DNA from: Candidatus Methanomethylophilus sp. 1R26
GTDB lineage: Archaea > Thermoplasmatota > Thermoplasmata > Methanomassiliicoccales > Methanomethylophilaceae
Assembly: GCF_001481295.1 (NCBI RefSeq)
Contig: NZ_LOPS01000049.1
Span: 1 to 64,000 of the forward strand
Length of the DNA: 64,000 nucleotides
Direction of reading: 5' to 3'
The translations under genes were made by a program, and so were the position numbers. This document shows, in pieces, positions 1-64,000 of this stretch; within the stretch, counting starts at the first letter, position 1, and every line of letters begins with the position of its first letter. Below the pieces are notes generated by a model. The model did no database searches. It was given only the letters and a program-made list of their open reading frames with translations, and was not told where the DNA came from.

Positions 1-161
1 GCCTCCCTGCCGCAACCTTCCCCGGAGGCCTGCCGAGGCGCCAATCTTTATCTCAGGTCGGCGATATTCCTCTCGGCCTGCGGTTTTTGTTGCAACTATG
101 AATCAGCAGGTCGCTTTTGAATGGGGCGGTCTTTTCTAAGAGTTGTACATATCATCCAACT

Positions 162-3100
162 ATGAAGATGAGAATCGTCGTCCTGTCGCTGCAGACGGCC
201 GACGCGAAGGTGCTTGCATCCCCGGCGGAGAAGCTCAGGGAGCTGGGGATTGAGCCCGACGTCTATGCGATCAACGCGGAGGAGGCGGATGACGATGTCC
301 TCGCCTACAAGGAACTGGAGGACCGCACGGAGCAGGCGGACTTCGTCTACTTCCGGTGCATGTCGGACACCTGCCGCTTCAAACGCTTCGACCGCTACAG
401 GAAAGCTCTGGAGAAATGCCCCGGCTGGGTGCTGCTGTTCAGCGGCAACGCCGAGGTCACGCTGATGAACCGCGGCCTCTTCAGGGGAAGCGACGGTGAG
501 TATCGGGAGATCTGCCGGTACGCGGCCTCCCGCGGGCCGGAGAACGACTGGGGCATGGTGCTGTACGCCGCGCACGGCCTCGGTAAGACAGATTCCGTTC
601 CCCCGGAGCCCAAGTCCCAGAGGAAGGACGGGATCTACCATAAGGGGATGGACAGGAACATCCCGAAGGAGGAGTACCTGAAGACCCTCGACCCTTCGAA
701 GATGACCGTGGGGATCCTGTTCGCCAGCACCCTCTGGGTCTATGACAATCTCGCTGCGATAGACGCCCTCACAGATGAGATCGAGCGCAGGGGGATGAAC
801 GCGCTCCCCGTCTTCTTCTCGGCGGTCTCCTACAAGACCGAGGGCGAGGAAGGCACCAAGGCGACGTTCAGGAAGTACTTCCTCAGGGATGACGGCAGCC
901 CGATGCCCGACACCGTCCTGGTCCACACCTCATTCTCCGTGATGTACAACTCCAGGGACGGGGAGGGGGTCAGGATCGCCGATGCGACAACTATTACGCC
1001 TCGCTGCTGGGCGTCCCCATGATCCACACCATGACGATAACGGGGGACTACGCCGACTACGAGACGGAGAAGGTCGGCCTCGGCAAGCACGAGATAACCA
1101 ACAACGTCGCCTTCCCGGAGATCGACGGCGACATCATCGCTGTGCCGATAGCCTACACGCCGAAGAAGAGCGGGATGAAACGGAACATCCCCATCCCCGA
1201 CCGCATCGAGGCTGCAGTGGACCTTGCATACCGCTGGGCGCGCCTCAGGCACATCCCCGAGAAGGACAAGAGGGTGGCCATCCTCCTCTGGCAGTCGCGC
1301 GCGAACTCAGGGGTCATCGGGAACGCCGCCGGCCTCGACTCCGTGGAGAGCATCGCCGGGCTCCTCCGGAGGATGAAGGATGAGGGGTACACCGTCGAGA
1401 ACGTCCCGGAGAACGGGAAGGCGCTCATCTCCGAGATTCTGGACAACGTCACCAACGACCTCGATTCCATGTCCTTGGAGACGGTCAGGAAGAAGGCCGC
1501 GGCCCTCATGGACAGGGATGACTACCTCAAGGAATACTCCGAAGTGCCGGAATGGGACCGCTCCATGATGGAGAAGGACTGGGGAGCGCCTCCAGGGGAG
1601 ATCTGCACCGACGGCAGGAAGATCATCATCCCCGGGCTCGTCAAAGGCAACGTCTTCATCGGCTACCAGCCCCTCCGCGGCATGGCCGACAAGTTCGAGC
1701 AGAGCATCCACGACCCGCTGCTGTTCGCCCAGCACCAGTATCTGGCATATTACCGCTGGATCAGGGACGTGTTCAAAGCGGACATCATCATCCACGTCGG
1801 GACCCACGGGACCCTGGAATGGCTCCCCGGGAAGAACGTCGGGCTCTCGGCCAAATGCGACCCAGATATCGTGCTCGGGAATGTGCCGAACCTCTACATC
1901 TACATCATCGATGACCCGGGCGAGGGGATCCAATGCAAGCGCCGCGCCGAGTCGGTGCTCGACGGGCACATGCCGCCGTCGATGGCGCGCGCCGGCAGAT
2001 ACGACGACATAGCCAAGGTGGAGGTCCCGCTGCAGGAGTACTTCCGGAACAAGGGCACGAACGACGCCGAGCGCCGCCGGGAGATGGTGAAGAACATCTA
2101 CGAGGCCGCCAGGGACGCCAAGATGCTGAACGACCTGGGCCTTGCCGATTCGGATCCGGGGCCGGAAGGCTTTGAACCGTACATCGTGAAGCTCCACGAC
2201 TACATCTCGGAGGTGAAGGACGCCCTGGTGAGGGCAGACCTGCACGTACTCGGGAAGGCCCCTGAGGGGAAGCACTTCCTGGAGACCGTCTACTCGCTGA
2301 TGAGGCTCGACAACGGGGACGTCAGGAGCCTCCGCGACGCCTTCGCGGAGGACGAGGGCACGGATATCCAGAAATGCATCTCGGATCCTTCCGGAAGCCT
2401 CCCCTCGGGAGAATTGAACTCCGCTGCGTCGACAGGATCGACGCCGAAGTGCAGGGCTTCATATCCTTCTGCGATTCGGTCTCGTTCGATGAGGATCAGT
2501 GCCTGGCACATCTCAGGGAGCTGCACGGGAAGGTATCGGATGATCTGAAGGGCTCGGTGCATTTCATGTGCTCCTCGGCGGTCCCCAACGTCCGCCGCAT
2601 GAGCGATGAGATGCAGTGCCTCCTCGACGGCATGGACGGGAAGTACATCCTGCCGGGCCCTTCTGGTGCTCCGACCCGCGGCAATGCCGACATCCTCCCG
2701 ACCGGGAGGAACTATTACTCCCTGGACCCGGACACCGTCCCGACGAAGGCGTCCTGGGAGATCGGGAAGCGGATGGCCGACGAGATGATCGACAAGTACG
2801 TCGCCGAGAAGGGGGAGTATCCCCGGGAGGTCGGCTTCATCATCTGGGCGACGGACACCATGAAGACCGGCGGGGATGATATGGCGTACATCCTCTGGCT
2901 CATGGGCGTGAAGCCCGTCTGGTCATCCGCCGGCGGGCAGGTCGTCGGCCTGGAGCCGGTGCCCCTGTCCGAGCTCGGAAGGCCCAGGATCGACGTTACT
3001 GTGAACATCACCGGGCTCTTCCGCGACACCTTCCCCAATCTCATCGACATGATCGACGATGCGGTGAAGATCGTGGCCGCCCTCGACGAGGATGACGAGG

Positions 3101-3912: not shown

Positions 3913-3978
3913 GTGCGCTTCGAGAGAAACACATCGTCGAGATTCCCTCCGGAACAGAGGCCGGCGGCCGGGCACGCT

Positions 3979-4296: not shown

Positions 4297-4373
4297 GTTG
4301 AGCCTCCATTGCAAAAACTCATAAGAAGGATGCCTATACTGGATTATTAATCCAATCGATATAGGTCGTTGAA

Positions 4374-5405: not shown

Positions 5406-7330
5406 ACGGCCTCCCGTTCACCGCCGTCGTCGGGATGGACGACGCCAAGCGCGCGCTGGAATGCGCGATCGTCAGCCCGAGCATCCGCACCGTCCTGCTC
5501 AGGGGCGGCGAGGGGACCGCCAAGACCGTTCTGGCCAGGGCGGCCGCCGGGCTCACGGGGAAGAAGATCGTCAACTGCCCCCTGAACGTCACCGAAGAGC
5601 AGCTGTTCGGAGGGCTGGACGTCGAGGAAACGGTCAGGACGGGAGTACCGGCCATGGAGAAGGGCCTCCTCTCCCGCGCCGACGGGAACATCCTGTACAT
5701 CGATGACATCAACCTGATGGACAGGGGCATGCTGGCCGGCATCATGGACGCCGTCCTCACCGGGACGGTGCGCGTCGAGAGAGGGCCCGTTTCCGGATCC
5801 TATCCCTGCGCCACGACCCTGATAGCCACCATGAACCCGGACGACAGCGACCTGTCGGACCATGCGCTCGACCGCTTCGACCTCTGCGCCTACTCGGCGA
5901 ACTGCACCGGGGGAGGAAAGGAGGCTCATCGTCTCCAGGAACGCAGAGCTTGCGTCGGACCCCGAGGGCCTGGCACAGCGCTTCGCGAAGTCCCAGGAGG
6001 AAGAGAGGGAGAAGGTCTCGAGGGCCGCCCTCATCCTGCCGATGGTGACGGTATCGGATGAGCTCATCTCCGTCGTATGCGAACTGTGCCAGAAGGTCGG
6101 GGCCGAAGGTTCCCGCGGGGACATCGCCATGGTGGAATGCGCCGAGGCCATCGCCGCTCTCAACGGGCGCGACTCGGTCATGAAGAAGGACGTCGAGGAG
6201 GCGGCAGTCCTCTGCCTCCCCCACAGGCGCAGCTACGGCCGGCCTCCCCCCGAACCTCCCCGGGATCAGCAAAATGAAGATACCCGGCAGGACGACGGGA
6301 AGAATAATGACGAACAGAACGAGAGCGAAGATCGGAACGGTCAGAAGAACAGCGGGGAACCTCCGCAGGGCAGCGGGGAACAGCCCCCGAACCGGCAGGA
6401 TCAGGACACCCGGCAGGACGATGGGGAGGACAGGGACAAGAACGAACCTCCTCAGAACGGCATGCCTGACATCGGCGAGATGCTCTTCGAGATCGGCAGG
6501 CAGTTCCGTGTCATAGATTATCTTGATTCGCGCGAACGCGTACCTTCGCGTACGAAGGCCCGCAAGGGGCGCCGCGCCGTGGCCGTCTCCGCCGACGGAA
6601 CCGGAAGGTACGCACGTGCCAAGATCCCATCCGGGCATCCGTCCGATATCGCGTTCGATGCCACCATCCGCGCAGCCGCGCCCTACCAGAGTGAGAGGCA
6701 CAAAGACGGGCTGTGATAGCCATCGAGGACCGCGACATCCGCGAGAAGGTGCGCGAGAGAAGGAGCGGGGCCACCCTCCTGTTCCTGGTCGATGCCAGCG
6801 GCTCCCTCGGGGTCAGGAAGAGGATGGCCGCCGTCAAGGGGGCAGTGCTCTCCATGCTGCGCGACAGCTACGTCAGGAGGGACAGGATCGGCCTGATGGC
6901 CTTCCGCAGGAGCTCAGCCGAGATGGTGCTCCCGCCGACGAGATCGGTGGAGTACAGCTACAGGAAGCTCGAGGACCTCCCGACCGGTGGGAAGACCCCG
7001 CTCGGGGAAGCGCTCGTCCGCGCCGGGGAGTACATGACCTCGTACGCCAGGACCCACATAGGTGAGAGATGCTTCATCGTCCTCGTGACGGACGGGCGCG
7101 CGAACGTCCCGGTGGCTCAGGGAGCGGACGCGAACGCCGAAGCGCTTAAGACCGCCGAGAACCTGAGAATCCCCGGCGTGAGGTGGATCGTAGTGGACGC
7201 CGGTGCCGGCTTCCCGCACTTCGACAACGCCGAGAAGCTCGCCGCGGCCCTGGAAGCACGCTATTTCCGCCTGGAGGACCTTGACGCCGACAGGCTGGCG
7301 GAAGGTGTCAGGGCTGCCGTGGACAGATGA
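5387..7330 (+). CDS. chlD: Chelatase subunit ChlD: AAA+ domain, acidic/proline linker, VWA domain (frameshifted)
   Basis: Second AAA+ subunit, which bridges ChlI and CobN. The N-terminal AAA domain has GGEGTAKTVL and NILYIDDINLMDRG. A low-complexity linker (about 6240-6460) is rich in Asp, Glu, Asn, Gln and Pro. The C-terminal von Willebrand A domain has the MIDAS motif DASGS. A frameshift lies in a G run near 5911-5915; joining gives ...CTG-EERRLIVSRNAELA. At 6713-6716 the frame changes again: either one lost G (giving ...DGL-VIAIEDRDIREK) or a real GTG start overlapping TGA, which would make the VWA part a separate, coupled protein. ATG 5387 or GTG 5402 could start the gene; both overlap the chlI end. 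Confidence 0.88.
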
Positions 7331-11741: not shown

Positions 11742-13498
11742 TCAGTCCTTCCTCTCTGAAGTCTGCTTCTTCACAAGGGCGATGAAGTCCTCGGTCCTGA
11801 ACGACCCGAGGTCTCCCTTGTCGCGGCTCCTGACGGCGACGGATGTGCCTTCCTCGGCCTCCTTCTCGCCGATGATCACCATGTAGGGGACCTTCTGGAG
11901 CTGAGCCTCGCGGATCTTGTAGCCGATCTTCTCGTCGCGGGCGTCGTTCTCGATGCGGATGCCGGCGGCCTGCAGCTGCGAAGCGACCTTCGCGGCATAG
12001 TCCCTGCTCTTCTCGGAGACCGAGAGGACCTTGACCTGCACGGGCGCCAGCCAAACGGGGAACTTCCCCGCGTAGTGCTCGATGAGGATTCCCATGAACC
12101 TCTCGACGCTCCCGAAGACGACACGGTGGATCATGATCGGGCAGTGCTTCTGACCGTCGGCGCGACGTACTCCAGATTGAACCTCTGAGGCAGCTGGAAG
12201 TCCAGCTGGATGGTTCCGCACTGCCAGGTCCTCCCGATGGAGTCCTCCAGGTGGAAGTCGATCTTGGGGCCGTAGAACGCGCCGTCGCCCTCGTTGACAA
12301 CGTAGGGCAGGTGCATGTCGTCCAGGGCATGCCTGAGGCCGTTGGTCGCGTTCTCCCAGTCCTCGTCGGAGCCCATCGAGTTCTCGGGGCGGGTGGACAG
12401 CTCGACGTGGTACTTGAAGCCGAACTGCTTGTACACCTTGTCGATGATCTTCACGATGGCGGAGATCTCGTCCTCGATCTGCTCGGGGGTGACGTAGATA
12501 TGGGTATCGTCCTGAGTGAAGCACCTGACGCGGAACAGCCCATGGAGCTCTCCGGACTTCTCATGCCTGTGCACCACACCGAACTCCGCCAGGCGGAGCG
12601 GGAGGTCGCGGTACGAGCGGGACTCGCTGGCGAAGACGATGGTGCTGCCGGGGCAGTTCATCGGCTTGATGGCGTAATCCTCGTCGTCGATCTTGGTGGT
12701 GTACATGTTCTCCTTGTAGTGGTCCCAGTGGCCGGACTGCTCCCACAGGTGGCGGTTGAGGATCTGCGGGGTGGAGATCTCCTTGTAGCCGGCGGGGATG
12801 TGGATCTCCCTCCAGTAGGACATGAGGGTGTTCTTGAGCGTGACGCCGTTCGGCAGGAAGAACGGGAACCCGGGCCCCTCTTCGGACATCATGAAGATGC
12901 CGAGCTCCTTGCCGAGCTTGCGGTGGTCCCTCTTCTTGGCCTCCTCCATCATGGCGAGGTACTTGTCGAGGTCCTCCTTGTTCTCGAAGGCGGTGCCGTA
13001 GATGCGGGTGAGCATCTTGTTGTGCTCGTCGCCGCGCCAGTACGCGCCTGCGACGGAGGTGAGCTTGAACGCCTTGCACTGCTTCGTGTAGAGCACGTGA
13101 GGCCCGGCGCAGAGGTCGGTGAACTCGCCCTGCTTGTAGAAGCTGATGACGGCATCCTCGGGGAGGTCCTTGATGAGCTGGACCTTGTAGTCCTCGTGCC
13201 TGTCCTCCATGAACTTGATCGCTTCGGCCCGCGGGAGGGTGAAGGTCTCGAGCTTGAGGTTCTCCTTCACGATCTTCTTCATCTCGGCCTCGATCTTGGT
13301 CAGGTCGTCTGCGGTGAAGCCGCCTTCGCGGTCCATGTCGTAGTAGAATCCGTCGCTGATCGAGGGACCGATGGCCAGTTTGGTCTCGGGCCAGAGCCTT
13401 TTGACGGCCTGCGCGAGGATGTGCGAGGTGGTGTGCCTCAGCACGGAGAGGCCGTCCTCGGCCTCCTTCACGGTGCCGTCGCTGTATAACGCTTTCAT
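11742..13498 (-). CDS. thrS: Threonyl-tRNA synthetase lacking the TGS domain (one frameshift)
   Basis: Class II aminoacyl-tRNA synthetase that charges tRNA-Thr. It shows the second-additional (HxxxH) domain starting LRHTTSHILAQAVKRLWP, the class II motifs (RYRDLPLRLAEFGVVHRHEKSGEL at motif 2 in a slightly altered form) and an anticodon-binding domain (KFPVWLAPVQVKVLSV). The frame breaks near 12155, joining LEYVAP to HCPIMIHRVVFGSVERF. Repaired length is about 585 residues: the usual N-terminal TGS domain of about 60 residues is absent, leaving MKALYSDGTVKEAEDG. The start at 13498 is preferred over 13558, because a TATA box sits at about 13555-13565. Confidence 0.92.
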
Positions 13499-13945: not shown

Positions 13946-15172
13946 ATGACTGTGGAACCGGAAATGAAACTGATTCAGCGCCCCCTGTACATGGACAGGC
14001 TGGCGGCGCACGCATGGAACGGGTTTGCCAAAGTATTGGTGGGCATCCGCAGATGCGGGAAATCATCTGCGCTCAAGCTGTACGCATCCGGGCTGAAAGA
14101 CTGCAACGTCATCTACATAAACACCGAACTGGCTGAAAACTACGACCTGCGGGATTGGAAGAAATTCCTCGGGGAAGTGAATTCGAGGATCGACGGAAAA
14201 GGCAGGAACGTCCTCATCGTAGATGAAATACAGAACATCGAAGGCTGGGACCTGGCACTCAGAGACCTGATAGCCCGCGGAGCATGCGACATCTACGTGA
14301 CCGGATCGAACTCGAGCCTGCTTTCATCCGATTATTCGACCCATATGGGAGGGAGGTTCAATTCGATCCGCATGTACCCTCTCTCATTCAGGGAATGCCT
14401 GGATTTCCGCAGGGAATTCGGCGGAACCGGCGATGTTCTCGAACGTTCATGAGGGTCGGCGGGATGCCGTCCCTCTGGCGCATGCCGGAGGGCATCGATG
14501 AATCGATGGGCATCATCAGGGACATCGTGAGCACCTCGATCGCCAACGATATAGAGGAAAGATATTCCCTGAGGGGAAGATCGGCCCTGACCGAAGTGCT
14601 GCGTTTCGTGCTTTCCACCATCGGGAGCTATGTTTCGGCAAACAACATCTACAAGTCCATGAAATCGGCCGGCAGCTCGGTTTCGGTGTCCACTGTATAC
14701 ACCTATCTCGAATACCTCGAGAACGCCAACATCCTGATACGTGCCAGCGTATACGATCTGAGGGGGCACCGCATCATCGGGTCCAAGTACAAGTATTATG
14801 CCACGGACATCGGCATCAAGCACGCCCTCATCGGATACCGCGTTAACGATACCCCCCGGCCACATGGAGAACATAATCTTCACTGATCTCCTCAGCAGAG
14901 GATTCGATGTTTACGTAGGGGATCCCGGCGGAAAGGAGATAGATTTCGTCGCCGTGAAGGATGACCGCCGGATATACATCCAGGTCTGCCAGACGATCCA
15001 GTCCGAGGAAACCATGGCGCGCGAGTTCTCCTCCCTGGATTCCGTTGACGATTCGTTCCCCAAATACCTGGTTCTGCTGGAGCCCGGTCCGTACAGCGGA
15101 TTCACGGACAAAGGGGTAAGATGCTGCGGGCTCGAGGAGTTCCTCTCCAAGGACGACCTGTTCGTCCAATGA
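13946..15172 (+). CDS. DUF4143-type AAA ATPase (two frameshifts)
   Basis: P-loop ATPase of the AAA_14/DUF4143 family, common in archaea and gut bacteria, function unknown. Walker A is GIRRCGKSS, Walker B is VLIVDEIQN, and sensor TGSNSSLLS follows. The C-terminal DUF4143 part has FMRVGGMPSLW, a winged-helix segment and a nuclease-like end GKEIDFVAVKDDRRIYIQV. Two frameshifts at homopolymers break it: T-T at 14446-14447 (one T missing, restores VLERFMRVGGMP) and the C6 run at 14852-14857 (one C extra, restores NDTPGHMENII). Repaired length is about 408 residues, normal for the family. Confidence 0.85.
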
Positions 15173-38097: not shown

Positions 38098-38205
38098 GGG
38101 GAAGAGATATCTGGATTGGGCTTATAAAACGCACGAGTCCGCGCGCGCGGAATGACGGAAAAGAAACAGCGGAAGATGTTTCCGGGCCGGGGAGGCCCGG
38201 CAGGT

Positions 38206-44794: not shown

Positions 44795-45882
44795 TTAATA
44801 GGATAACGCGCGGAATGCTGGGTTGGATTGATTCTGCGGCCCCTGTCGGCGCTTCCCGAAGGACGGGGAGATCTCCTTTTCGGCAACGGCGACGGTGACC
44901 CCGTTGCCCGCCTGCTTCCGCAGGAGGAGCTTCCCGCCTCCGGCGAGCCTAACCGCCGACCTCTCGCAGACGCAGTCCACCCCGATGACCGATCTGACGA
45001 ACCCGGAGGACGAGAACTCCCCCGGGACCTCCTTCAGCTCCTCCGCGGTGTAGCAGACCAGGGGGAGCCCCCTCCTGGCGGCCAGGGATATCAGGCCCTC
45101 CTCGTCCTTCTTCAGATCGATGGTGGCGAACCCGCAGGCGGACTCCGGCGGGAGCCCAATCTTCGCGAAAGCCTCGGAGACCGCGGCGGCGATCGCCTCC
45201 TCCGGCGTCCCCCGGCGGCAGCCGATGCCAACGGCGCAGGTCCTCGGGACCAGCCTCAGCGTGGCCGGGAAGGGCTTCGCGGACGTGTCGTAGCCGATGT
45301 ACACGCCCACGGGCGCATCCTTCCCGCCGGAGAGCTCCGGAGGGACCGCCCCGCCGACGGGGATGTCCGATACCAGGCCGACCGGGGAGCCGGAGAGCAC
45401 CGCGGACGAGACGTCCTTGATGGCGCCGAGGTTCTGGACCGCCAGGCCGTTGGAGACCGCCCAGGCGTCGATGGATATCTTCCCGTTGATGTCGGTGGCA
45501 GTGGTCACGACCGGCACGGCTCCGATCTTCCGAGAGATCTCCAACGCGTACCCGTTGGCGCCCCCGATGTGGCCCGACAGGAGGGGCACGCAGTAATGAC
45601 CCAGCTCATCGATCCCGATGACCGCCGGGTCTAGGTCCTTCCTCTTCACGAACGGGGCGATCTCCCTGACGGCGATGCCGATCGCCCCCACGAAGACGAG
45701 GACGTCGTTCTCCGCGAACGCCTGCTCCGTCCACCTGCGCATGCTGCATTCGACCCTGGGGACCCCCAGGGTGTCCATGGACGTCTTCGCATGCACTTCG
45801 GCGGTCCTTCGGGGAACGCCGCCGCCACCTTCTTCGCGGTATCGCAGCCTTTGGTGCTGAACGCTATTATGCTCGCCTTCAT
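44795..45882 (-). CDS. cbiG: Cobalt-precorrin-5A hydrolase CbiG (one frameshift)
   Basis: Opens the delta-lactone of cobalt-precorrin-5A with loss of acetaldehyde in the oxygen-independent pathway. The N-terminus MKASIIAFSTKGCDTAKKVA is followed by VLVFVGAIGIAVREIAPF and PLLSGHIGGANGYALEIS. The C-terminal CbiG_C domain carries AVGIGCRRGTPEEAI. The first 30 residues are in another frame; one base is missing near 45797 (restores PPK-VHAKTSMDTLG). The start at 45882 overlaps the cbiD stop (ATGA). Confidence 0.92.
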
Positions 45883-47026
45883 TCCTTCGCCTCCACTTTG
45901 GCCAGGAGCTCCTTCGCGGACGGGGTCTCCCCGAGTATGCCGAACTCGGAGGAGAACACGACGGCCGCCGTCGCGATTGATCCCCTGACGCGGTGCTGCA
46001 TGTGGAACTCGATCTTGGGGATCATGATGTCCATAGTGGGCTTGATAAGGCCCTTCTCCGCGAGCGCCTCCAGGGCGTCGTCGGTCGAGATGCATCCCAT
46101 GATGCGCTTCGCCGTCTCCGCGTCCGCGCCGGCCATGACCGCGTTGGACGCGAGGATCTCCATCCTGGCGTCCGCGTTCCGGGAATGGGTGTTCATGATG
46201 CCGCCGGCGACCTTCACCAGTTTTCCCAGGTTGCCCACGAGGAGGACCCCCTCCGCGCCCATCTCGACGGCCATGTCCAGGAAGTCCCCTATGAAATTGC
46301 TGCATTCGACCGGCATATCCCCTTCCAGGCCGGGGTACGCCTTGGCGAAGTCCTTGCCGTAGTTCCCCGGCACCGTCAGCAGGTACTTCCTGCCCTGGGC
46401 CATGAAGACCTTCATCTCCGCCTTTATGGACCCGAGGAGCGCGGTCTCGCTCATGGGCTCCACGATCCCGGACGTCCCCAGGATCGATATGCCCCCGACG
46501 ATGCCCAGGCGGGGGTTGAACGTCTTCTTCGCTATGGCCTCCCCTTCCGGCACGTTTATGACCGCCCTCAGCCCGCCGCTGTAGCCGGCATCGGCCGCGG
46601 CCTTCCTGAGCGCATCCTCGATCATCTGCCTCGGCACATGATTGATGGCCGCGTTCCCCTCGGGCTGGTCAAGCCCCCTGCGGGTGACACGCCCGACCCC
46701 CTTTCCACCGTCGACCTCGAAACCCTCCGGGATGCGGGAGACTCGGCGCAGATCTCCGCCCCGTTGGTGTCGTCGGCGTCATCGCCCCCGTCCTTGCGGA
46801 CGGATGCACGCGCGCAGCCCGGGGCCGTCTCCGCCGATACTACTTCGACGGTCACGTCTATGCCCTTCGGCGTCGATATGCGCATGTAGGGCGGGGCGTC
46901 ACCCGTGAGGAGGAGGCGTGCGGCAGCGCCCGCCGCCGCAGCGGCCGATGTCCCGGTCGTGTAGCCCCTTCTGAGCTTCCTGCCCTCCACGTATACGAAC
47001 GCCTGATCCTCGCCGATAGGTTCCAT
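45879..47026 (-). CDS. cbiD: Cobalt-precorrin-5B C1-methyltransferase CbiD (one frameshift)
   Basis: SAM-dependent C1 methylation in anaerobic corrin ring synthesis. The N-terminal signature KLRRGYTTGTSAAAAAGAAA is unmistakable. Later segments include GISILGTSGIVEPMSE, LLTVPGNYGKDFA and VLLVGNLGKLVKVAGGIMNT. One base is missing near 46745, after which the frame reads RVSRIPEGFEVDGGKGVGRV and continues to 45879. Repaired length is about 383 residues. First gene of cbiD-cbiG-cbiJET-cbiA; the spacer 47027-47113 contains an AT-rich TATA-like stretch at about 47060-47075. Confidence 0.93.
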
Positions 47027-47113: not shown

Positions 47114-48482
47114 TCAGCTGTCGTCTTCTCCGCGGTAGATGGCTATGTATGACTCGGGGTCGCGGTAGACGCTTGGGTTCGAGACGATATCATAGACGTC
47201 CGGGAGGTTGAACATCATCTGGAAGCTAGTGCGCTTCCTGGGCTTTATGAAATCGCATTTTCTCGGGTCCGCCGCATGGCCGAGGACCCAGCACATCTTC
47301 TCGTAATCGTCGAAGAAGTACTCCTGCAGGAGGGGGATGATGTTCTTGGTAAACACCTTGGCCAGGTCATCCATGTTCCTGATGTGTATGAAATAAGCAT
47401 GACCCAGCGTATGCTCCCTGTCGTACAGGGCCTCGATGCGCTTGTTGATGGTCCTCAGCAGCCGGGAGAGGTCCACGTCCATGATCCTCATGCCCTTTAG
47501 CACGTCCGGGTCCGGCATCATCTCGACGAACTGGAACCTCCTCCTGAGAGCGGTGTCGAGCGCGGTCAGGGACCTGTCCGCGGTGTTCATGGTTCCGAGC
47601 ACGTACACCTTCTGCGGAACTGAGAACTTGACCTTCAGCTGGGGGAGGAAGACCTCGAGGCACTCGGGCATGCCCTGCCTCCTCGAGGATTCGAGCAGGG
47701 TGATCAGCTCTCCGAAGATCCTCGAGATGTTGCCTCTGTTTATCTCGTCGATGATGAAGACGCAGTTCCCCGTGTCCTCGAAGACCGGGTACTCCTTCTC
47801 CATGGAGGCGAGGAAATCCGAGGCAGTGCAGCTCAGCCGGGCCGGTGCATCGGATTCGATGCCGCACAGCGGGCCCTGCTCCCTCACGATCGCCCATTCG
47901 ACGGAGGCAGCGGTGCCGGCTACATCCTTCACGATCCCCACTGCATCGGACGAGCCGCGAGAGAACATGGAGATGACGATGTCCCCCCGGCCTTATCCCT
48001 TCCGGAAGGCATCCGGCCGGAAGGCTGCCGTCCGAGAGTGCCTTCTCCCTGGCCGGATTGGCGCCGAACCCTCCTGGGGACACCGCCCATACAGCGGCGT
48101 CCGGATCGGCGGACAGCAGGTCCTTGGGCACGCCGTCCCCGACATGCACCGGTTTCTTGGAATCGTGGCAGAAGGAATAGAACACTCCGGGGACCGGCGA
48201 GTAGATGAGCGACCCGTCGTCGCGGACCTCAGGCCTAATCCCCTCGATGAAGTCGTCGTAGCTGAGGGACTGGTGGAAGGTCATGAAGTCGATCCTCCTG
48301 ATCTTCGTGTACCGGTCGTACTTCCTCAGTGCCAGGTCGTAGCCGCCGGCGATGACGTCCTTCAGGGGCCTGCCTTCGATGATGGCCACGGCGTAGTTGA
48401 CGACGTTGTACGTCTTGCCTGTGCCCGGGGGCCCGTAGAGCAGGAGGTTGTTGGAGATCGCTTCCTTCACGTCAGCGCTCAT
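47114..48482 (-). CDS. McrB-like AAA+ GTPase with an inserted EVE/PUA-like domain (one frameshift)
   Basis: AAA+ protein of the McrB/5-methylcytosine restriction type. Walker A GPPGTGKTYN is almost at the N-terminus, Walker B is VFIIDEINRGNISRIFGELI, and sensor 1 is YVLGTMNTADRSL with the arginine-finger region DTALRRRFQF. Between Walker A and B an insert reads AAVWAVSPGGFGANPAREKAL ... GDIVISMFSRGSSDAVGIV, which resembles EVE/PUA-like modified-base readers placed in some McrB homologues. One extra base in the C6 run at 47983-47988 breaks the frame. About 456 residues after repair. No N-terminal DNA-binding domain and no mcrC nearby. It overlaps the upstream membrane protein gene by ATGA. Confidence 0.85.
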
Positions 48483-49361: not shown

Positions 49362-52255
49362 TCATACCCTCCTGGTCTGGAGGAGCACGAAAGCAAGTGC
49401 CAGCACCGCGATCACTACTCCCAGCATCCCGACGCAAGGGCCGCCGGGTCTATCCCGCTGCCGCTGTCCTCAGGCTCTGCGCTGTACGCGGCCACGACGG
49501 CCTTGCCGTCCATGTCGGCGGTCACAGGCAGGGTGCATACCGCATCCGTCCCGACCAGGCTGCCGTCCAGCATCCAGCCGCTGAACCTGAAGCCGGTCAT
49601 GTCGGGGGCCTCAAGGCGTATCTCCGACCCGGTCTTCGCGCTTATCTCCTGCACCGGAATCAGGTCCACGGATGTCGGGGCCTGGTCTTCGGTTGCGGCC
49701 GTCACCGCCATGAACCTGGCATGCACGACCACGCTCGTCTCGGTATCCACCAGCCCGTACAGATTCACGGAAAGGAACCCGTCGAACGGGTCGGAGGCCT
49801 CGGACACCCGGTCCGTTACCGTGTAATCCCCGTAGACGTACTTCAGGCCGGCGGTCAGGGGCAGGCTGGCGGTGGCCCTGCCGTCCGACCCGGTGCTGAC
49901 CTTGGCATACTGGGTTCCGTCGCAGTAGACGGTCAGCGAGATGTTCGGTACGGTGTTGTTCCTCGTCAGGGCACCGCCTTGTGAGGCGTAGGTCACGATC
50001 TGCTTCTTCACTATCGCATGCGCAGTGTAATCCGCCCCCGAGGCCGACATATAGTACCCTTCGGAGGAGACGGACAGGCCGGTCACCGCATCGCCCTCCC
50101 ATCCCAGGATGCTGAACCGCAGGCTGCCGCCGTCGGAGGTGAAGGAAGCCCTGTGGCCGGCGCCTGAGACAGTGTAAGCGAACAGGGCCTCTGCTCCGGA
50201 CGGGAGCCCCGAGACCGTGTACGCTCCGATGGCTGAGGGGACCGCCCTCTCGAAGGACGAGGGGACCGCGGACACCTCTGAGGAATACGTGAAGTCCGCG
50301 AAGGCGGCAGCCGTCGTGAAACGGTCGTTGCTGAAAGCATACCCATCGACGGTTGCCCAGGTGACGGTCGCCGACGTTCCGGCCTTCACATAGAAGGAGA
50401 AGGTGCCGTCGGACGCCGGAACGATGAGGTCCGCCATGCTGGACTGCGATGCCCCGTACGATACGGCTGCGGATGCTCCCTGCGGCATGGTGCCGGCGAG
50501 GGTGCCGGAGCATTTGTATGCCGCATCATCCGATGCCAATGCGACCCCTGTGAAGGTCCCGGAGAGGACGGCGGTGCCGTTCTTCCCGGAGGCCAGGTCG
50601 GGTATGCCGGACGGCGAGGAGTCAGCAGCTTTTATGTCGGCGACCGAGAACGAGTACACGTCCCTGGGGGACCCGGCCGTGAACCCGGCGAACGAGATGA
50701 CGAGGTATGCTGCGCATCCTGACGGCAGGCCGCTCGGGACCTTGTAGACCACCGAGGTCAGGCCGCCGGCGCCGGTCGGCCCGACAGCGGCGGCATGGCC
50801 GGCGGCGATGGCAGTCGATATGGTTGATGGATCATCGGTTATCGCATACGGGCTGCCGCTCCCCGTCTGATAGTACCAGACAGCCGATACCGTCGCATCC
50901 CTGAGAGGGCGTCCATTGGAAGATTCCGCGGAGACGGATACAGACGACTCAACGGCGGTCAGGGCAATCTCTGCGGAGGACGAAGGCGACCACAGAACGT
51001 TCCCCTCGAGAAGGCTCGACGGGAACGGGCTGCCCTCAGTCTTCGGAAGGCCGTCGAGGATCCCTCCGTCGCCGTCGTTGGCCTGGAAAGTATAGATGCT
51101 TCCGCTCACGGCGCGGACATAAAGGTACACCGTATCCCCCTTCGGGACGGTGTACGATATCCCGGCCCTGCCGGAGCTGTCGGTGGCGGATATCACAGAG
51201 CACATGCCGGATACGGCCGACTTGTTGTACATCGACGGGTCGTCGGAGGACGCGTTCTGTATGAGCCATACGGCATTGATTTCCACGCCTGCCGCCGGAA
51301 CGCCCCCTGCATCCGAGACAGTGACCCAGAGGGTCTTCTCGGAAGCGCGCACCTCGGGAAGCGCAGTGTCCGAGATCGCCGTGCCGGGCTGCGGGATGTA
51401 TGGGAACGTGTACCCGCTGCAGGACACTGAGGTCAGAGATACCGTCGATCCCTTCGGCACTCTGAACGAGAAGGATCCGTCCGATGCTGTGCTGACGGTG
51501 CCGGTATCGGTCCTTCCCCCGGCCGATGCGTAGGAAACGGATGCGCCTTCGATCGCGCTCCCGGAGGCATCGGCGACGGTCCCCGATACTTTGACGAAGT
51601 CCCTCGCGAAGAATGTCTGGGCCGAGATCGAATATCCTCCGGACTCCACTTCTGCGGAATAGGTGCCGGAGACCGAGCCTGTGCGGATATCGCAGCTCTC
51701 CGATGAACCGACCGTGAATATGCATGCATGCTGCATGGCAGTAGACAGGGGTATCCCCCCGCCGACGGTCACGGAGGCACGGTCACTGCCTGAGATCTCC
51801 GTCTGCACCCCGTCCTTCTCGACGGCTACTGTCGCGGATGCTCCGTACGACGATGTGAACATTACCTGGAGGATCGCGAACCCGTCGGAGCTTCCGAGAC
51901 CCAGGCGGGCGCGTATGTCCCCCCTGATGTCCGACAGGGATGCGCCGGTCTCAGAGTAGGTGAGGATGCTGCCCGCCGAGGAACCGGATGACAGGCCGTA
52001 CCAGAACCCCTGATCGGATAACGTCCACTCCTCGGGCTCCAGCGACCTTGGCAGCTTCTCGTTCATGTAGGCGAGGGACCCATAGTCCTCCGAGTCCTGG
52101 TCGTAGACATCGACTGACAGCCCGCCTACGGCGGCCGCCTCCGATCCCTCCGCCGGGAAGAGCGCCAGGACCAAGGCCGCCGATGCGATGACGACCGCGG
52201 CCGCAACGGCCGCGCGCTTCCATGCTGCTGACATATGGTTCTGCATCTGCATCAC
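49362..52255 (-). CDS. Secreted, membrane-anchored protein with carboxypeptidase-regulatory/Ig-like repeats (3' frameshift)
   Basis: About 960 residues. Signal peptide: AAWKRAAVAAAVVIASAALVL after a basic start. Several beta-sandwich modules follow, such as VSGTVADASGSAIEGASVSY with DGSFSFRVPKG, then similar repeats (KTLWVTVSDAGGVPAAGVEI; SSNGRPLRDATVSAVWYY). The given frame ends in ASGCWE at 49415. Shifting by one base near 49435 yields VGMLGVVIAVLALAFVLL plus basic residues and a stop at 49362, a classic C-terminal membrane anchor. It starts 3 bases after the adhesin stop (GAGGTG before ATG). Confidence 0.75.
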
Positions 52256-55200: not shown

Positions 55201-58200
55201 TGAGCCCTGAGGCCGGGTCGCTGCCGACGGTGAACGTGAACGGCCCTCTCACCGTCACGGGGCCGGCACCCTGGATGTGGTCCCCTGTGAAGGTAATCGT
55301 GTACTCGATGGAGCTGAACTTGGCGGTGTAGGTCTGGCCGGCCACGAACTTGGACGTTCCGGGCACGGCCTTGATGCCGTTGCTGTCGTACCAGCCTTCG
55401 AAGCTGTATCCGTCGGCGGGCACCTCCATGCTCTTGAACAGGTTGTAATCGGCAGGGTTCTTGAAAGAGGACCTCTCGCCGAACACGTGGTCGTAGTAGA
55501 CGCTGACGGCCGTGCCGGGGGAATCTCCCTTCGCGATGGTCACGGTGACCTCCATGTCCTCGGAGACGAGCTCGAACCTGTCGAAGATGTACCCGGCGCG
55601 GACCGAGGAGGCGGACGCGTCGAGATAGAACACCTCGCTTCCCCTGTAGATGGCCACGCTGAGCACCACGAGCTTGTCGTTGTCGAACTCGGGAACCGCC
55701 ATCAGAGATCCGTAATGGGCCGTCTGGGACAGCGGCGAGGTGCCCTCGCTGGACGTGATGGTGAAGGTAGCATCGCCGGCGTCCGAGACATTGCCGGTGA
55801 ACACCACCGGGACGTTCTTGGACAGGGGGTAGACGGGGACGGCCATACCGGACCTGGCCGTGATGCCGCTGCTGAAGTCGCTGTCCGAAGCGTACACCTT
55901 GATCGTGCTGCTCGCTCCGACCATGGTGAAATAGTAGTCGGCGGACGCGCCGTACGGCAGCACGATCATGCCGCCGTAGATGGCCTTGTAAGTCTCCTGC
56001 CCGGCGGGCAGGAGGACGGACACAGTGGAGCTGACCTCCTGCACGAAGGTGAAGGACCCGGAGAATGCGGACCTGCTGTCGGAATCGGCATGCACGGTGA
56101 CGGACATCCCCGGGCACGGCACGATCGAGGCCGCCATAGCGGAGTTCGCAGTGCCGTTGAACCAGAACGCCGCCGACGCGGTACCGGGTATGCCGGTGTA
56201 ATCGAACGCCCCCTCTCCTATGGAGGTCACGGACGCAGCGATGTAGACGGTGCTGAGAGGCGAGTTCCGGAAGGCATAGGCGCCGATCGACGTGAGAGAG
56301 TCGGGAATCACAGCAGACCTCAGGGAACCGCATCCCTCGAAGGCGCTCTCGCCAAGATAGGATGTTCTGGGGCCGAGGGTCACCGAGCGCAGCGCAGTAC
56401 TCTCGAACGCATGACCGCCGACAGAGGTTATCCTGATGAATGGGTTCAGGCCGGTCCCGGAGTTCAGCGATGAGAGCGTGACGCATCCGGAGAACGCATA
56501 ATCGCCTACGGAGGTTGCAACCGGGGCGCTGACAGATGCCAGAGCCCTGCATCCGTAGAACTGGTACGGAGCGATGGCCTTCGCCGCGGGCATCTCGGCC
56601 GAGACCAGGGACGTGCATCCGTAGAACGTGCCGTCGCGAACGTCTCAGCAGAGGTCATGACGACCGAGGTCAGCGCGGTGCACCCGTGCAAGTCTGCGAG
56701 GAACGAGACGGCCGCAGGGACGCTGATGCTCTGGAGCATCGGCACCTTGCAGGGATCGGAAGACGCCGAGCTGTTGAAGAGGTTCGCAGGCAGGGACTTC
56801 AGCGAGGGCGACGAGAAGGCCGTCAGGGAAGTGCATCCATAGAACGCATAATTCCCGACGGACTCTATGCCGCCCGATGTCCCGACGGTCACCGTCTTCG
56901 CGCCGGTCTCGGCGAACGCATAGCTGCCAATGTACTCGGCCGAAGAGAGCGCGTATGCTCCGGAAGCGTTGACCGATGTCAGAACGGAGCACCCGTAGAA
57001 CGCGAAGTCTCCCACCAACTTGAGGGCCGGCATAGTGACCGACCCGAGGTTGATGCACCCGCCGAAGACGGCGTACTTCGATGCATCGGAAGCCGAGACA
57101 GGAACGGAGACCTCCGTTCCGATGCTCTCAGCCGATTCCAGGGTGAGGGATACGAGCGCGGTGCATCCGGAGAATGCCAGCGCGCCCACCGACACCGCGG
57201 ATCCGGCCGTCACCGACGAGAGCACGGAGCATCCGGAGAACGATCCCTCCGGTATGCCGGTGAGCCCGGCGGCGGAGAAGGATTCCAGGGAAGCGCAGCC
57301 GCTGAAGGCGTAAGCTCCGAGGGATACGGTCCTGTCGGAGAAGGCTGCAGACTGCAGCGAGGCGCAGCCGTCGAAGACATATGTCCCGAAGGACGCAGCC
57401 AGCGGCATTGTTCCAGACGTGATGGATGTCAGACCCGACCCCGCGAAGGCCCTGTTCCCGACGGTCGCGGCGGCAGGGGCGGAGAAGGACGTGAGCGAGG
57501 CGCAGCCCTCGAAAGCGCTGGGCGAGATGTATTCGCTGATGCCCAGCACCACGTTGTTGAGGGAAGAGCACCCGTAGAACTCGCGCCCGTTCTGGAGCAG
57601 GAGGTTGGCCCTGTCGAGGTTGATGGTCTCCAGCGACCTGCAGCCCTCGAACATCGATGCAGGCAGGGTCAGGGACCTCGTGGACCCGCTTATGAGCGTC
57701 ACCTTGGCGAGCGATACGCAGTTCTTGAACTGCCCGGCCTGGCCGAGAGTGGTCGCGCCCGATATGTCGACCTCCTCCAAGTCGCTGAAGCCGCTGGACA
57801 TGTCCATGGTGAACCTGGTGACGGTCGGGATGATTAGCTTCTTCAGCTTTGTAGCAGAATGCGATCCCGCCGCCATGAACGTGGCCGACGGGAGCTCGGC
57901 TATGGTCCCGTAGACCTTCAGGGACAGCAGAGAAGTGCAGCCCTGGAAGACCTTATCTCCCATAGTCAGAGAGGCGCCGGAAGACCCAAGGACGACGTCC
58001 GTCACAGCAGAACCTGCGAACGCACCCTCGCCGACCACCCTCACGCCAGTCAGGCTGACGGTGTTGTCGGACGAGTTGATCTGCTTGATCCCGCTGTTCC
58101 TGAAGGCGTACTTCCCGATCTCGGTGCAGTTGCCGAAGGTAGCAGAGGAGAGCTTGGCGCATCCGTCAAAAACGGATTCCCCGACCTTGGTCATGGAGGG

Positions 58201-61200
58201 CAGGGAGGCAGACAGCATGGAGGAGCACTCGCTGAACGCGGCGGTGCCTGCCGTGAGCACCTGAGGTCCGGAGACCCCGGTCATACCGGTGCAGCCGCAG
58301 AACGCCTCCTGGCCTATCGAAGATACGGAATTAGGGAGAGAGACCGTCCCGGACAGACCGGTGCAGTCCCTGAACGTGCGTGTTCCTATGGATATGACGC
58401 CGTCTGCCACCGTCAGCGAGATTGCGTTGCTCTTGCTGTAGTACCACGGGGTGGTGATGTAATTATCCTCGGAATAGTCGCAGCCGCGCACGTAGCCGGT
58501 CAGCGTTACCGAAGTTATCCCGGTGCAGCCTGAGAAGCTGGGCGAGGAACCGCCGGCCGTGTTGAGGTCCGCAGGAATGCTGAGGGCCTGTATGCCGGAG
58601 CATCCGGTGAACCCGCCGTCCCCGATGCTGAGGACGCGCTCTATGGTCAGGGCGGAGATGTTCTTGCATCCGGCGAACGCATAGCTGCCTATGCTGGTGA
58701 TCGATCCCGGGATTACTATATTCCCCGAGAGGCTGGCACAGTCGCGGAACGCGTTGTCCCCGATATGATCCACAGTGTGGGCGAAGGACATGCTGATGCT
58801 CCTTCCTGAAACGCTGCTGATGTACCAGGGGGTGTTCTTGTAGTTCTTGTTCTGCGCACTCGGATGGTCGAGGTAGTCCACGCCGGCAGTTCCGGTGAAG
58901 CTGACCTGCGTTATCCCGGTGCATCCGCTGAATGCAGGATTGCCGTCGTCACAGACGGAGTTGACATCTACCGGAAGCGTAAGGGAAGCTATGCCGGTGC
59001 AGCCTGAGAACGATCCGCTGCCCAGGGCCGTGTCGGTCCTGGATATCGTGAGGGCGGTCAGGCCGGTGCATCCCTCGAAGGCGTGCGCACCCACCGATTT
59101 CAGAGCGGAGGACAGGGACAGGGGGCCGGTAAGGCCGGTGCAGCCGTAGAACATGCTGTCGCCTATCGAAGTCACAGATGATGCCAGGGAAAGGCTCAGC
59201 GTACCGTCCTGGAAAGATACCACGGAGTGAGGGTGCGGGCGCTCCCGTCCGACAGTTCGGAGTAAGCATATCCGTCCGTGCCGGTGAACGCTAAGGATGT
59301 GACGGATGCGCATCCCTCGAAGGCAGGGGATTCGGCCGATACCACCGTGTTCATCCCGATCGGCAGGGACATGGACCTTACCGATGTGCACCCGGCGAAC
59401 GAGGATTCTGAAACCGCCGCGCTTCCGCTGAGGACCAGGGAAGTCAGGCCTGTGCATCCATCGAAGGCATGAGCTCCGATCGGGATCGACAGGGACAGCG
59501 TGCCCTTCAGGGCGGTCAGGCCCTTGAACGTGTAGGCGCCGACGGAGGCGGAGGAACCGAAGTCCACGGCCACCGATGAGGCGGTGCTCATGTGCCAGGG
59601 AGTGAGCGCATAGTCGCTCTCGCTGTAGTCGTGCCCGGCGCCGGAGCCGGTGAAGACGACCGACGTTACCCCGGTGCATCCGCTGAATGCGGGGTCCGAC
59701 GGGTTCCCGACGGAATCGGCGGAGATGGGCAGGGAGACCTTCGAGATGGACGTGCATCCCCTGAAGGCCCCGTCGCCCAGGTCGGCCAGGTTCCCGCCGA
59801 GCATGACTGTGTTTATGCCTACGCAGGACCCGAACGCCTCATCGCCTATGGAGGTCACGTCCGTCAGGGACACGGCCCCGGCGCCGTTGAGGCTGGCCAG
59901 CGCGGTGCAGCCGTAGAACGCCTTGCTGCCTATGGTGGACAGGGCAGGGGCGGTCACGGAGGCGAGGGCGGTGCATCCCTCGAAGACGCTCGACCCGAGC
60001 GAAGAGGCAGCAGGCATGCTGATCGACCGCAGGGCGGTGCATCCGTAGAACACGCCGTCGGCGAACGACTGGGCCGACTGGGCATTGACGTTCGCCAGCT
60101 TGGTGCATCCGTGGAGGTCGGCATCGAAGGTGACCACAGAGGGCACGGAGATCGAGACGAGCTCCGGGGTCAGGACGGCCGTCTCCTTCCCGACGTTCCC
60201 GAACAGGCCGGCCGGCAGGTCGGTGATCCCGGGCGCAGAGAAGGAGGTCAGGCTGGCGCATCCGTAGAACGCCATGTTTCCGACCGTTCCGGAGCCGATG
60301 TCCGCGGAACCGAGCACGACCTGCTTGGCGCCGGTGCCGGCGAAGGCGGCGAAGCCGACGTTCCGGACCGAGGAGAGGTCCATCTTAGATGTTGAGTTGA
60401 ACAGTACCAGATGGTCGCATCCGTAGAAGGCCATCGGGCCCACGTCGGTCAGGACGGGCATCTTCACGGAGGCGAGGGCGGTGCATCCCAGGAACACGGC
60501 GGGCGTCGTGTCCTCTTCCGTGTCTATCTCTGATATATCGGAAGTTATCCCCACGCGGACGGCCGCCGGCATCTCCAGCGAGGCGAGCCTGTAGCAGTCG
60601 GAGAACGCTCTCTCGGCGATCGAAGCGGCCGCAGGCACGGACACCGATGTCAGAAGGCTGCATCCGCGGAGCATCTCCGCAGGGATCGCCTGGAGCCCGG
60701 GCGCGGAGAACGAGGTCAGGGCGGTGCATCCGCGGAAGGCTTCCGATCCGGAGGATTCGGTCGCAGCGGGCAGGGACACGGTCGCCAGGGATGTGCATCC
60801 GCTGAACGCCCCTGCGCCCAGCGACTGGACCTCCGGGAACATGCTGTCGGATACCGACTGGAGCCCCGATGAGGCAAAAGCGCGTGCCCCTATGGATATG
60901 GCCTGAGGAGCGCTGAAGTGGATCAGGGCGGTGCATCCGAAGAACGCCTCCTGGGAGACAGAGGGCGACATGGTGAGATCGGCAGTGTCCAATGAGGTGC
61001 AGCCGTAGAACTCGCGGCCGTTCCTGAGCTCCGCCTTCTCCAGATTCACGATTGAGAGGGACGTGCATCCCTCGAACATCGACTTGGGCAGGACAACGGT
61101 GCTGGACGAGCTGGCATCGTTGAACAGGACAACGGTGACGAGCGCAGTGCAGTTCTTGAACGTGCCCTCGGTGGACCCGAAGCTCGTGGTCCCGGATATA

Positions 61201-64000
61201 TCCACAGCTGTAAGATGTGAGAAACCGGACAGAGTGGCCGAGAACTGGTTGGCATGCCTGACATTGAGGGTTGTGAGCATTGATTCGAAGGCCGATGACC
61301 CAGACAGGGTGCTTGTCTTGAAGTCGCTGATGGTGCCGTCGACCGTGAGCGACATCAGCTGGGCGCACTCCTGGAACGCGTAGTTCCCGATGGTGAGGGC
61401 GGTGCCCTCCTTCCCGACGGTGACGTTGATCACTCCGGAATGCTTGAAGGCGGAGTTCCCGAGAGAGGTCACCTCTGTGAGAGACAGCGTTGATGAGCCG
61501 TTGAACAGGGAAAGCGACTGGGTCTCAGCGAAAGCGCTGTTCCCGATGGATGTCAGGGTCCCGAGTGTGACACTCGTGAGACCGGTGCAGCCCTCGAACA
61601 TGGAATCAGGGACAGATGTCATCCTCGGAAGGTCGGCCGATGACATCGAGGTGCATCCCTTGAAGACGGCTGTCCCGGAAGTGGTCACGGATTCGCCGGT
61701 AACGGCGGTGAACTTGGTGCAGTCCTGGAAGGCGCCGTCGCCGATCGATGTGATCCCTGAGAGGTTCAGGGTGCCTCCGGTGCCGGTCAGCTCGGTGCAT
61801 CCGGCGAACATCTTGGCTCCGATCCTCTGGACGGAGCTCTCGACGGTCAGCACGATAGAGTTGTTCCTGCTGTAGTGCCAGGGAGTATAATCGGAGTTGA
61901 TGAGGTAGTCATACCCGACAGTGCCGGTGACTGTCAGCGCCCTGATACCGGTGCATCCCCTGAATATAGGTCTGGCAGTGTTGCCGACAGTATTGAAGGA
62001 CACCGGGAAGGCGAGATTTCTGATGCCGGTGCATCCGTCGAATGCTCCGTCGCCCAGCATCGGCGACCCTTTGATCTCCAGCGAGGTTATTCCGGTGCAT
62101 CCGGAGAAGGCGTACTTGCCTATGCCGGCCAGGTTGGAGGGTATGGAGAGAGCTCCGCTGATGCCGGTGCATCCGGCGAACATGTAGCTGCCGACGGACG
62201 TGACCGTGGGAGCGAGAGTGAGGCTGATGCTGTTGGCCTTGCTGTAGTACCAGGGAGTGCGATGATAGTCCCCGTCTCCGGAATCTGAATATGCGAATCC
62301 GGAGGTTCCGGTGAACGTGATGCTGCGGATGCCGGTGCATCCGTCGAAGATAGGCGCATCGGAACTGCCTGCGGCATTGAAGGATATGGGCATCGAGAGG
62401 TTCCTGATGCCGGTGCATCCGGAGAAGGCTCCGGTGCCGACATCGATGACCGAGTCTCCGACGGTGAGCGCCGTCATGCCTGTGCATCCTCTGAACGCGT
62501 ACGCGCCGATGTCCGAGATCCCGTCCAGCGACACCGATGTTACCTTGGCGCACCCGTCGAAGGCATGCGTCCCGATCTCGGTGAGACCGCTCGGGAAGAA
62601 TATGCTCCCGCTGAGGCCGTAGAACGATGACCCGCTGGACGACCAGCATCCGGCGAACATGTAGTCCCCTATGGACTTTACCCCGGTGAAGGAGACAGAG
62701 ATATCCCTGCTGGTACAGCTGGCGCGCCACGGGGTGCCAGCAGCGCTGCTCTCATCGTAATCGAACCCTTCTCCGAAGGACGACCCGGCAGTGAACGCGA
62801 ACGTGTGCACGGGGCAGTTCTCGAACATGGACGAAGTGTATTTCAGGCCGATCGGAAGGGTGAGTGACCTGAGTGCCGTGCATCCGGCGAACGCGCCCTC
62901 GGCGATGGTCTCCACCGAATCCGGAACGGTCAGGCCGGTCAGGTTGGTGCAGTTCCCGAAGGCATTGGAACCGATGGACTGCAGGCCGCTGTTGAGGGCC
63001 AGAGCGGACAGCGGAGCTCCGCTGAAGGCATACTGGCCTATGCTGCGGAGCGTCGACGGGAACGTAACGGTGTTCGCCGCATTGAGGTACGAGTAGTCCC
63101 CTATGGACACGATGCCCTCATCCAATATGAGCGTGTATCTGGGACAGTTGTGCCAGAACAGATTGGCGCTCGAGGATGACGTGTATGCTGCGCCCTCGCC
63201 CGTTCCCGGAGTGAACCGCAGAGTGGTGATGTGCGTGTTCGAGCTATTGGTTCCGACATCCATCTTGAAAGAGATGGGAACGGTCAGGTTGGTCACTCCT
63301 GAGCAGTTGTAGAACGCGTTGCTCCCGGCGGACTGAAGCCCATCCGAAAGGGTCAGCGTTGTAATCTTGTTGCAGTTGTAGAACGCGTTCGCCCCGATCT
63401 CCCTGACGCTGTCGGCAAGGGTGACTGAGGTTATCGATGCACGGTTCACGTCGTTGCGGTAGAACATGTACGGGTCAACGGCTGTGACACCGTCCTCGAA
63501 CGTGACTGAGATCTGCCATCCCGAATAGTTCCACCAGGACCACGGCATCGATCCCCAGTTCGACAGATAATAGTTGGTGGCGAGGGCCGAGGCCCCGTTG
63601 CCTGTGAAATGGAACTCCGAAATGCGTGTGCCGGTGTCGAAAACAGCGTGAAGCTGGACGCTTATGGGGACCGTCAGTTTGGTTATCCCGGGGCATTCGT
63701 AGAACACGTTGTTGTTCTGATTCACGGTGAACAGCGTCGCCGCCGTGCTCTTCACGACGACTGAGGTTATCCCGGAAGATCCCCTGAAGGCGTTAACGCC
63801 AACCGAAGTCAGGTATTCGGGCAGCACGACCTCTCCCGTGATGGAAGAGTGATAGAATGCCGACTTGTAGATCGTGTTGACCGTATCCGGGATGATGAGT
63901 CCGTTCTTCACCATCTTGGCAGGGCAGATCATCAGTACATTGACCGACTTGTCGTAGAGGATCCCCTCGACAGTGGTATAGGACTGATTGGAGCTGTCCA
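52259..64000 (-). CDS. Giant BspA-like / InlB-repeat surface adhesin (partial at the right edge; two frameshifts)
   Basis: At least 3,900 residues; the N-terminus lies beyond 64000, where the frame is still open (VEGILYDKSVNVLMICPA). From the right edge to about 56000 it consists of BspA-like leucine-rich repeats (LRR_5) with units such as VTSIGDSMFYGCTGLTGPLS and IGSYAFAGCKNIS. From about 55500 to 52500 at least six InlB-type (Flg_new/Listeria-Bacteroides) repeats follow, each ending in FxGWxx (for example YVFAGWTSS, YTIVYDANGG). The C-terminal membrane helix is LIWVLAGVLAVFVCAAVIVA with a basic tail. Frames shift near 59215 and 56635. Gut methanogens use such proteins at the cell surface; a binding role is inferred. 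Confidence 0.87.

Follow-up and report, generated by a model that had tools for sequence, protein, structure and literature searches.

Frame Breaks in the Window

The window, the whole 64,000-nucleotide stretch analysed here, is contig 49 of a 50-contig, 1,723,106-base assembly whose size and contig number equal those of the published draft genome of "Candidatus Methanomethylophilus" sp. 1R26 (PMC4759072). This organism is a methane-making archaeon of the cow rumen. Compared with G031, a one-contig genome of the same species, the window carries 20 single-base indels in 16 genes, the names of which were verified on the G031 proteins by NCBIfam or Pfam.

On the forward strand, this assembly has one base fewer than G031 at two C2 runs in cobN (984..985 and 2426..2427; TIGR02257), a T3 run in a DUF4143 ATPase gene (14445..14447; Pfam AAA_14 and DUF4143), an A2 run in hemC (24809..24810; TIGR00212), a C2 run in top6B (32207..32208; TIGR01052) and a C2 run in a ZIP transporter gene (41232..41233; PF02535). 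One base is also missing outside any run at the second break of a chlD-type chelatase ATPase gene (6714..6715) and at the second break of top6B (32695..32696). One base more is found in a G5 run at the first chlD break (5909..5913), in a C6 run at the second break of the DUF4143 ATPase gene (14852..14857) and in a G7 run at about codon 15 of hemA (20677..20683; TIGR01035).

On the reverse strand, one base fewer is present in a C2 run of thrS (12162..12163; TIGR00418), a C3 run of an ABC transporter ATPase gene (19453..19455; PF00005), a G2 run of an Obg/DRG-like GTPase gene (27097..27098), a C2 run of lysS affecting the last codons only (34786..34787; TIGR00467), a G2 run of cbiA (41773..41774; NF002204), a run of cbiG that is C4 in G031 and C3 here (45805..45807; Pfam CbiG), a C2 run of cbiD (46741..46742; PF01888) and a G2 run in the last ~25 codons of a gene for a secreted protein (49433..49434). 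The McrB-like AAA protein gene (PF07728, with PRK11331 below cut-off) has one base more in a C6 run (47983..47988). For the GTPase, named DRG at first, the NCBIfam matches to Obg-type GTPases fell below cut-offs and were accompanied by a generic small-GTP-binding domain. Three of the 20 breaks, in hemA, lysS and the secreted protein gene, take effect only close to a gene end.

Two further breaks were located by a reference-free coding-frame scan in a BspA-type LRR adhesin gene on the reverse strand, one at ~56.64 kb (56635..56651) with no clear run and the other placed only to the interval between 59.17 and 59.48 kb (59166..59476).

An earlier note on this DNA had claimed about 20 single-base breaks, and 19 of the 21 that it listed match clean indels against G031; the adhesin pair appears as a coding-frame signal alone, and the chlD break at 6714 was missing from the list, its addition giving 20 coding indels in all. 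The runs G7 at 20677, C6 at 14852 and C6 at 47983 were named exactly, each being one base longer than in G031. A C4 run near 19447 was misplaced: a G4 run equal in both genomes lies there, and it is some 6–8 bases further on that they differ, by a C3/C2 run. The view that many breaks sit in G/C homopolymers holds for the five of 20 coding indels in G/C runs of at least four, whereas 15 lie in runs of 1–3.

Comparison with a Same-Species Genome

G031 aligns to positions 132–52886 of the window at ~97% identity, and 27 clean single-base indels separate the two sequences, 20 of which fall in the 16 genes. All 16 are free of internal stops in G031 and have lengths divisible by three, so that the gene is open there at 20/20 coding sites. 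The orthologue alignment proposed in the earlier note thus found a near-identical genome with intact frames, and breaks shared with close relatives, its proposed counter-evidence, were not seen in the loci compared: 11 other loci of the genus for thrS, 12 for chlD, and G031 only for the remaining 14 genes. The thrS gene was open in 11/11 of these loci (L011–L021). A scan of genome contigs with thrS returned mostly bacterial homologues, and a DNA search with window positions 38128–39930, read on the non-coding strand, yielded no useful relative.

Indel counts were based on the window contig and contigs C1 and C48 against G031 (162,974 aligned bases), with the assembly pieces C50, C2, C3, C5, C8, C10, C15, C20, C25, C30, C35, C40 and C45 outside the counts. 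Alignments shorter than 1000 bases or below 88% identity were dropped before counting, and of the gaps only those of a single base with a flank identity of at least 0.9 were kept. The three contigs gave 75 indels, or one per ~2200 aligned bases.

Indel Spectrum and Sequencing Record

According to the published record, the 1R26 draft was obtained exclusively with the Ion Torrent PGM (318 chip), assembled with SPAdes 3.6.1 at >200x coverage (PMC4759072); the exact match of size and contig number shows that the assembly examined here is this PGM draft. Measured on the longer allele, two of the 20 coding indels are outside any run, whereas runs of two hold 11 (10 CC or GG and one AA), runs of three hold two and G/C runs of 4–7 hold five. 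Across the three contigs, 32/56 deletions and 12/19 insertions involve C or G. Insertions rose steeply with the length of the G/C run, from 1/47053 runs at length 1 to 6/309 at length 5 and 2/39 at length 6. Two modes are distinguished in this assembly: G/C runs of 5–6 gain a base, and runs of 1–3, chiefly CC after G, lose one. Of the C/G deletions in two-base runs, 19/21 have this last context, which is shared by 40% of all such runs (P = 2e-6, for a hypothesis chosen post hoc).

High-frequency indels (HFI) of the PGM, as characterized in the accessible text of Bragg et al. 2013 (PMC3623719), occur once per 1000–2000 bases, are mostly single-base with 29% in homopolymers, comprise deletions mostly of C/G and insertions mostly of A/T, and recur across so many reads that deeper sequencing fails to eliminate them. 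The indels described here resemble HFI in being single-base, in their similar rate, in lying mostly outside long homopolymers and in the prominence of C/G deletions. They differ in that insertions are mostly C/G in runs of 5–6, whereas HFI insertions are mostly A/T, and in that G/C runs of 5–6 are over-called, while the same text describes long runs as under-called by the PGM. The HFI study used 314 and 316 chips, and 1R26 was sequenced on a 318 chip (PMC3623719; PMC4759072).

Taken with the comparative tests below, these results indicate, at a probability of roughly 97%, that a PGM-only assembly introduced the breaks as single-base errors in its consensus and that they are not mutations of the organism, the wrong calls at individual sites being what we infer. 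The ~20 broken genes are almost certainly sequencing mistakes, an artefact rather than biology. The PGM reads bases per nucleotide flow through a pH signal; it miscalls run lengths, and at some sites the identical wrong indel arises in many reads, an error that even >200x coverage does not vote out. In a sequence-accurate genome of the 1R26 strain, the 16 genes would be expected to be open.

Alternative Explanations

Nearly all of the indels could be errors with a few true strain differences among them, for instance at A/T sites outside genes, at the 3' end near 11657 or at one of the adhesin breaks. The seven of 27 clean window indels outside the 16 genes, several of them in A/T runs, and the lack of a same-species control for the adhesin lend this mixture some support; nothing specific speaks against it, although the overall rate leaves little room, and it is considered possible but less likely than not. 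The adhesin lies where the gene content of G031 differs, and its breaks have no intact same-species copy for checking because G031 retains only the last 211 residues. It is improbable that one or both adhesin breaks are real and, in some members of the population, switch or truncate this surface protein.

Real gene decay, in which function is being lost and the frameshifts are fixed mutations, is very improbable. The frames are truly broken in the printed sequence and G031 proves only the state of another strain, but three tests, namely a flat indel rate, frame polarity and an absence of nonsense substitutions with low dN/dS, favour error. For the first test, 1-kb bins were used where 700 or more of their bases aligned, and these contained 74 of the 75 clean indels. 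From the lowest (<0.3%) to the highest (>6%) of five divergence classes, 11, 13, 14, 16 and 20 indels were counted, corresponding to 0.41, 0.60, 0.49, 0.62 and 0.35 indels/kb, the last a low estimate because the flank and gap filter loses indels in divergent parts. A uniform number per base was not rejected (P = 0.38), consistent with independence from divergence, whereas indels following the substitutions would number 0.24 in the lowest class against the 11 observed (P = 3e-15). Contig C1, with 42 clean indels, showed the same rate as the window.

For the second test, codon-usage frames placed the broken frame in this assembly at 36 of the 75 indels and in G031 at one, with 38 undecided. Polarity was undecided at seven of the 20 coding sites (the first DUF4143 ATPase break and those in the ABC transporter ATPase, hemA, lysS, cbiG, McrB-like and secreted protein genes), with scores at 20683 and 49435 leaning the other way; every other coding site was polarised to this assembly. 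Long spanning open reading frames, tried as another polarity measure (39 sites scored as broken in this assembly, 15 in G031 and 21 as equal in both), were replaced by codon-usage frames because long antisense frames misled them.

For the third test, no nonsense substitution was found in 8339 codons of the 16 genes against G031, and the pooled dN/dS of 0.103 showed no relaxed selection of the kind expected for pseudogenes. hemA (416 codons) and lysS (515 codons) carry no substitutions yet one indel each, and the essential genes thrS, lysS, hemA and top6B are affected like the others. The earlier note's attribution of the breaks to sequencing error rather than decay was supported by the open frames in G031, the PGM-only record and the flat indel rate.

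Programmed frameshifting in some genes, chlD foremost, has next to no likelihood. Conserved programmed frameshift signals are described for chlD of cobN-bearing prokaryotes (PMC9227772), and the gene here is likewise of chlD type, stands beside cobN and has a broken frame, with the break at 5909 in a G run. In contrast to the published system, the gene is open over 640–924 residues in all 12 genus loci with an orthologue, G031 included, so that no conserved frame change was found among them, while the same-motif piece spans 211 residues here; a separate small-subunit gene lies directly upstream (4405–5400), and a second break at 6714 follows the first. In the accessible text of the same paper, archaeal chlD is named without a frameshift.

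Systematic long-read error at a putatively modified motif, GCCGWC (202 sites in 52.8 kb of the window) is scarcely credible, for although 6/20 clean window deletions lie in the motif, 0/32 on C1 and 0/4 on C48 do so, and long reads are absent from the published 1R26 sequencing record (PMC4759072).

Implications for the 1R26 Genome

At one indel per ~2200 aligned bases, several hundred would be expected by extrapolation across the 1.72 Mb of the assembly. A flat indel rate against rising divergence offers a simple reference-based test of error for any draft with a close relative. Gene loss should not be read from the 1R26 draft: the genes of cobalamin, haem, lysyl- and threonyl-tRNA synthetase and topoisomerase VI look broken in it and are very probably intact in the organism.

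Frame breaks relative to a same-species genome

The single-base frame breaks across the window are, with high confidence, sequencing errors. A genus search with the thrS DNA led to G031, a one-contig genome of 1.77 Mb labelled as the same species, whose thrS is 99% identical across the gene and one base longer. G031 1513000–1582000 aligned with window 132–52886 in three pieces of 94.6–97.3% identity, and the remainder of the window was not collinear with it. The alignment contained 51 gaps of all kinds, among which the restriction to single-base gaps with flanks at least 90% identical left 27 clean indels, comprising 20 deletions and 7 insertions in the window. Twenty of the 27 fell in 16 genes (names tested against NCBIfam and Pfam), with two each in cobN, chlD, the DUF4143 ATPase, and top6B, and one each in thrS, the ABC ATPase, hemA, hemC, the GTPase, lysS, ZIP, cbiA, cbiG, cbiD, the McrB-like AAA protein, and the secreted protein. 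The comparison with closest orthologues that the earlier note had proposed gave G031 frames without internal stop for all 16, bearing out its estimate of about 20 breaks. Its listed breaks stood and a second one in chlD was added, while one named run ("C4 near 19447") had been misplaced, and its attribution to homopolymers held for about a quarter of the coding breaks.

We hold the other seven clean indels (8983, 11657, 17088, 17094, 30469, 30478, and 36760) to be outside the 16 genes; of these, 8983 falls within an over-extended G031 ORF, and a small ORF has 11657 at its 3′ end. In a reference-free coding-frame scan, frame changes appeared close to most of the indel sites, at distances from several bases up to some tens of bases. 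The intergenic stretch 29964–29986 carries G6 and then C9 nearby, the latter being the longest run of the window; the alignment with G031 has a gap of several bases there, and the stretch was excluded from the clean count.

Sequencing error or gene decay

Indels that arose by mutation should become more frequent as the divergence between the strains rises; this divergence is very uneven, from blocks with 0 substitutions per kilobase up to about 16%. Within window 132–52886, kilobases with 0–4 substitutions (e.g., 21–24, 35–39, and 48–51 kb) adjoin others with 60–160 (9–11, 28, and 40–46 kb), a mosaic between both strains patterned as after recombination. Over 160.8 kb of three contigs, grouped in 1-kb bins by divergence, the indel rate from lowest to highest was 0.41, 0.60, 0.49, 0.62, and 0.35 per kb, as substitutions went from 25 to 5738. 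A uniform per-base rate was not rejected (P = 0.38), and growth with substitutions was rejected (11 indels seen in the lowest bin vs. 0.24 expected).

For each of the 75 clean indels of the three contigs, the codon usage of the two flanks indicated which genome kept one frame: 36 were broken in the 1R26 assembly, one in G031, and 38 were undecided or non-coding (13, 0, and 14 in the window alone). Seven of the 20 coding sites in the window were undecided, and at two of these seven, 20683 and 49435, the scores lean towards the 1R26 assembly. No nonsense substitution occurred in 8339 compared codons of the 16 genes, whose pooled dN/dS against G031 was 0.103, and hemA (416 codons) and lysS (515 codons) differed from G031 by one indel each and nothing else. 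The flat rate, the polarity, the lack of nonsense changes, and the low dN/dS agree with the earlier reading of error instead of decay. A literature search combining 1R26, frameshift, and Methanomassiliicoccales found no paper in the collection searched.

Breaks shared by relatives, which the earlier note had named as counterevidence, were not seen for thrS and chlD, the two genes followed through the genus. The thrS frame was open over 589–657 residues in all 11 genus loci examined (L011–L021) vs. 476 in the 1R26 assembly, and the chlD frame over 640–924 residues in 12 loci (L148–L159) vs. 211 for the corresponding 1R26 piece; a paralogue with 37% identity (L161) was left out of the count. A chlD search had returned stops in 5 of 12 matches with a query starting 92 residues ahead of the true start; the open lengths are those of full-length genes, and we take these stops to precede that start. 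A programmed frameshift, described for chlD in passages of PMC9227772, is therefore excluded for this gene. Another chlD/chlI-type pair of the 1R26 assembly (G000:C11:16632-19555) likewise appears split into pieces that occupy different frames, which would be expected of errors spread over the whole genome.

Error spectrum and sequencing record

The assembly comprises 50 contigs with 1,723,106 bases in all, and contig 49, whose bases 1–64000 form the window, has 69,515. The genome announcement (PMC4759072) gives the same totals for "Candidatus Methanomethylophilus" sp. 1R26, a rumen enrichment obtained from a Danish dairy cow. The sole genome data it names are Ion Torrent PGM reads from a 318 chip (>200x), with Trimmomatic used for trimming and SPAdes 3.6.1 for assembly.

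Across 162,974 aligned bases of contigs 49, 1, and 48, insertions affected 6 of 309 G/C runs of five and 2 of 39 runs of six vs. 1 of 47053 of length one; deletions affected 21 of 17700 G/C runs of two, and 50 of 56 deletions lay in runs of one to three. According to passages of Bragg et al. (PMC3623719), high-frequency PGM indels occur once per 1000–2000 bases, are mostly single-base, lie in homopolymers in 29% of cases, and are mostly A/T insertions or C/G deletions, with the strand-asymmetric ones lying in runs of 2–3 in 82% of cases and consisting chiefly of C and G deletions. The 1R26 rate (one per ~2200 bases) and deletions fit these figures, whereas the C/G insertions in runs of five to six fit them poorly. 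In the same contigs, 19 of the 21 two-base C/G-run deletions concern a CC that follows a G when read on the C strand. Of such runs overall, 40% have this context, and the bias may be a signature of the instrument or of the base caller.

The adhesin and biological meaning

A very large BspA-type leucine-rich-repeat adhesin (Pfam), which also carries Listeria-Bacteroides repeats, spans window 52259–64000 and continues to ~65.1 kb of contig 49. Two further frame changes within it come from the reference-free coding-frame scan; G031 has only its last 211 residues and provides no control there. A distant homologue lies at 678–685 kb of G012, another genome. There is no biology in the breaks of this window, with the adhesin, at most, as a possible exception.
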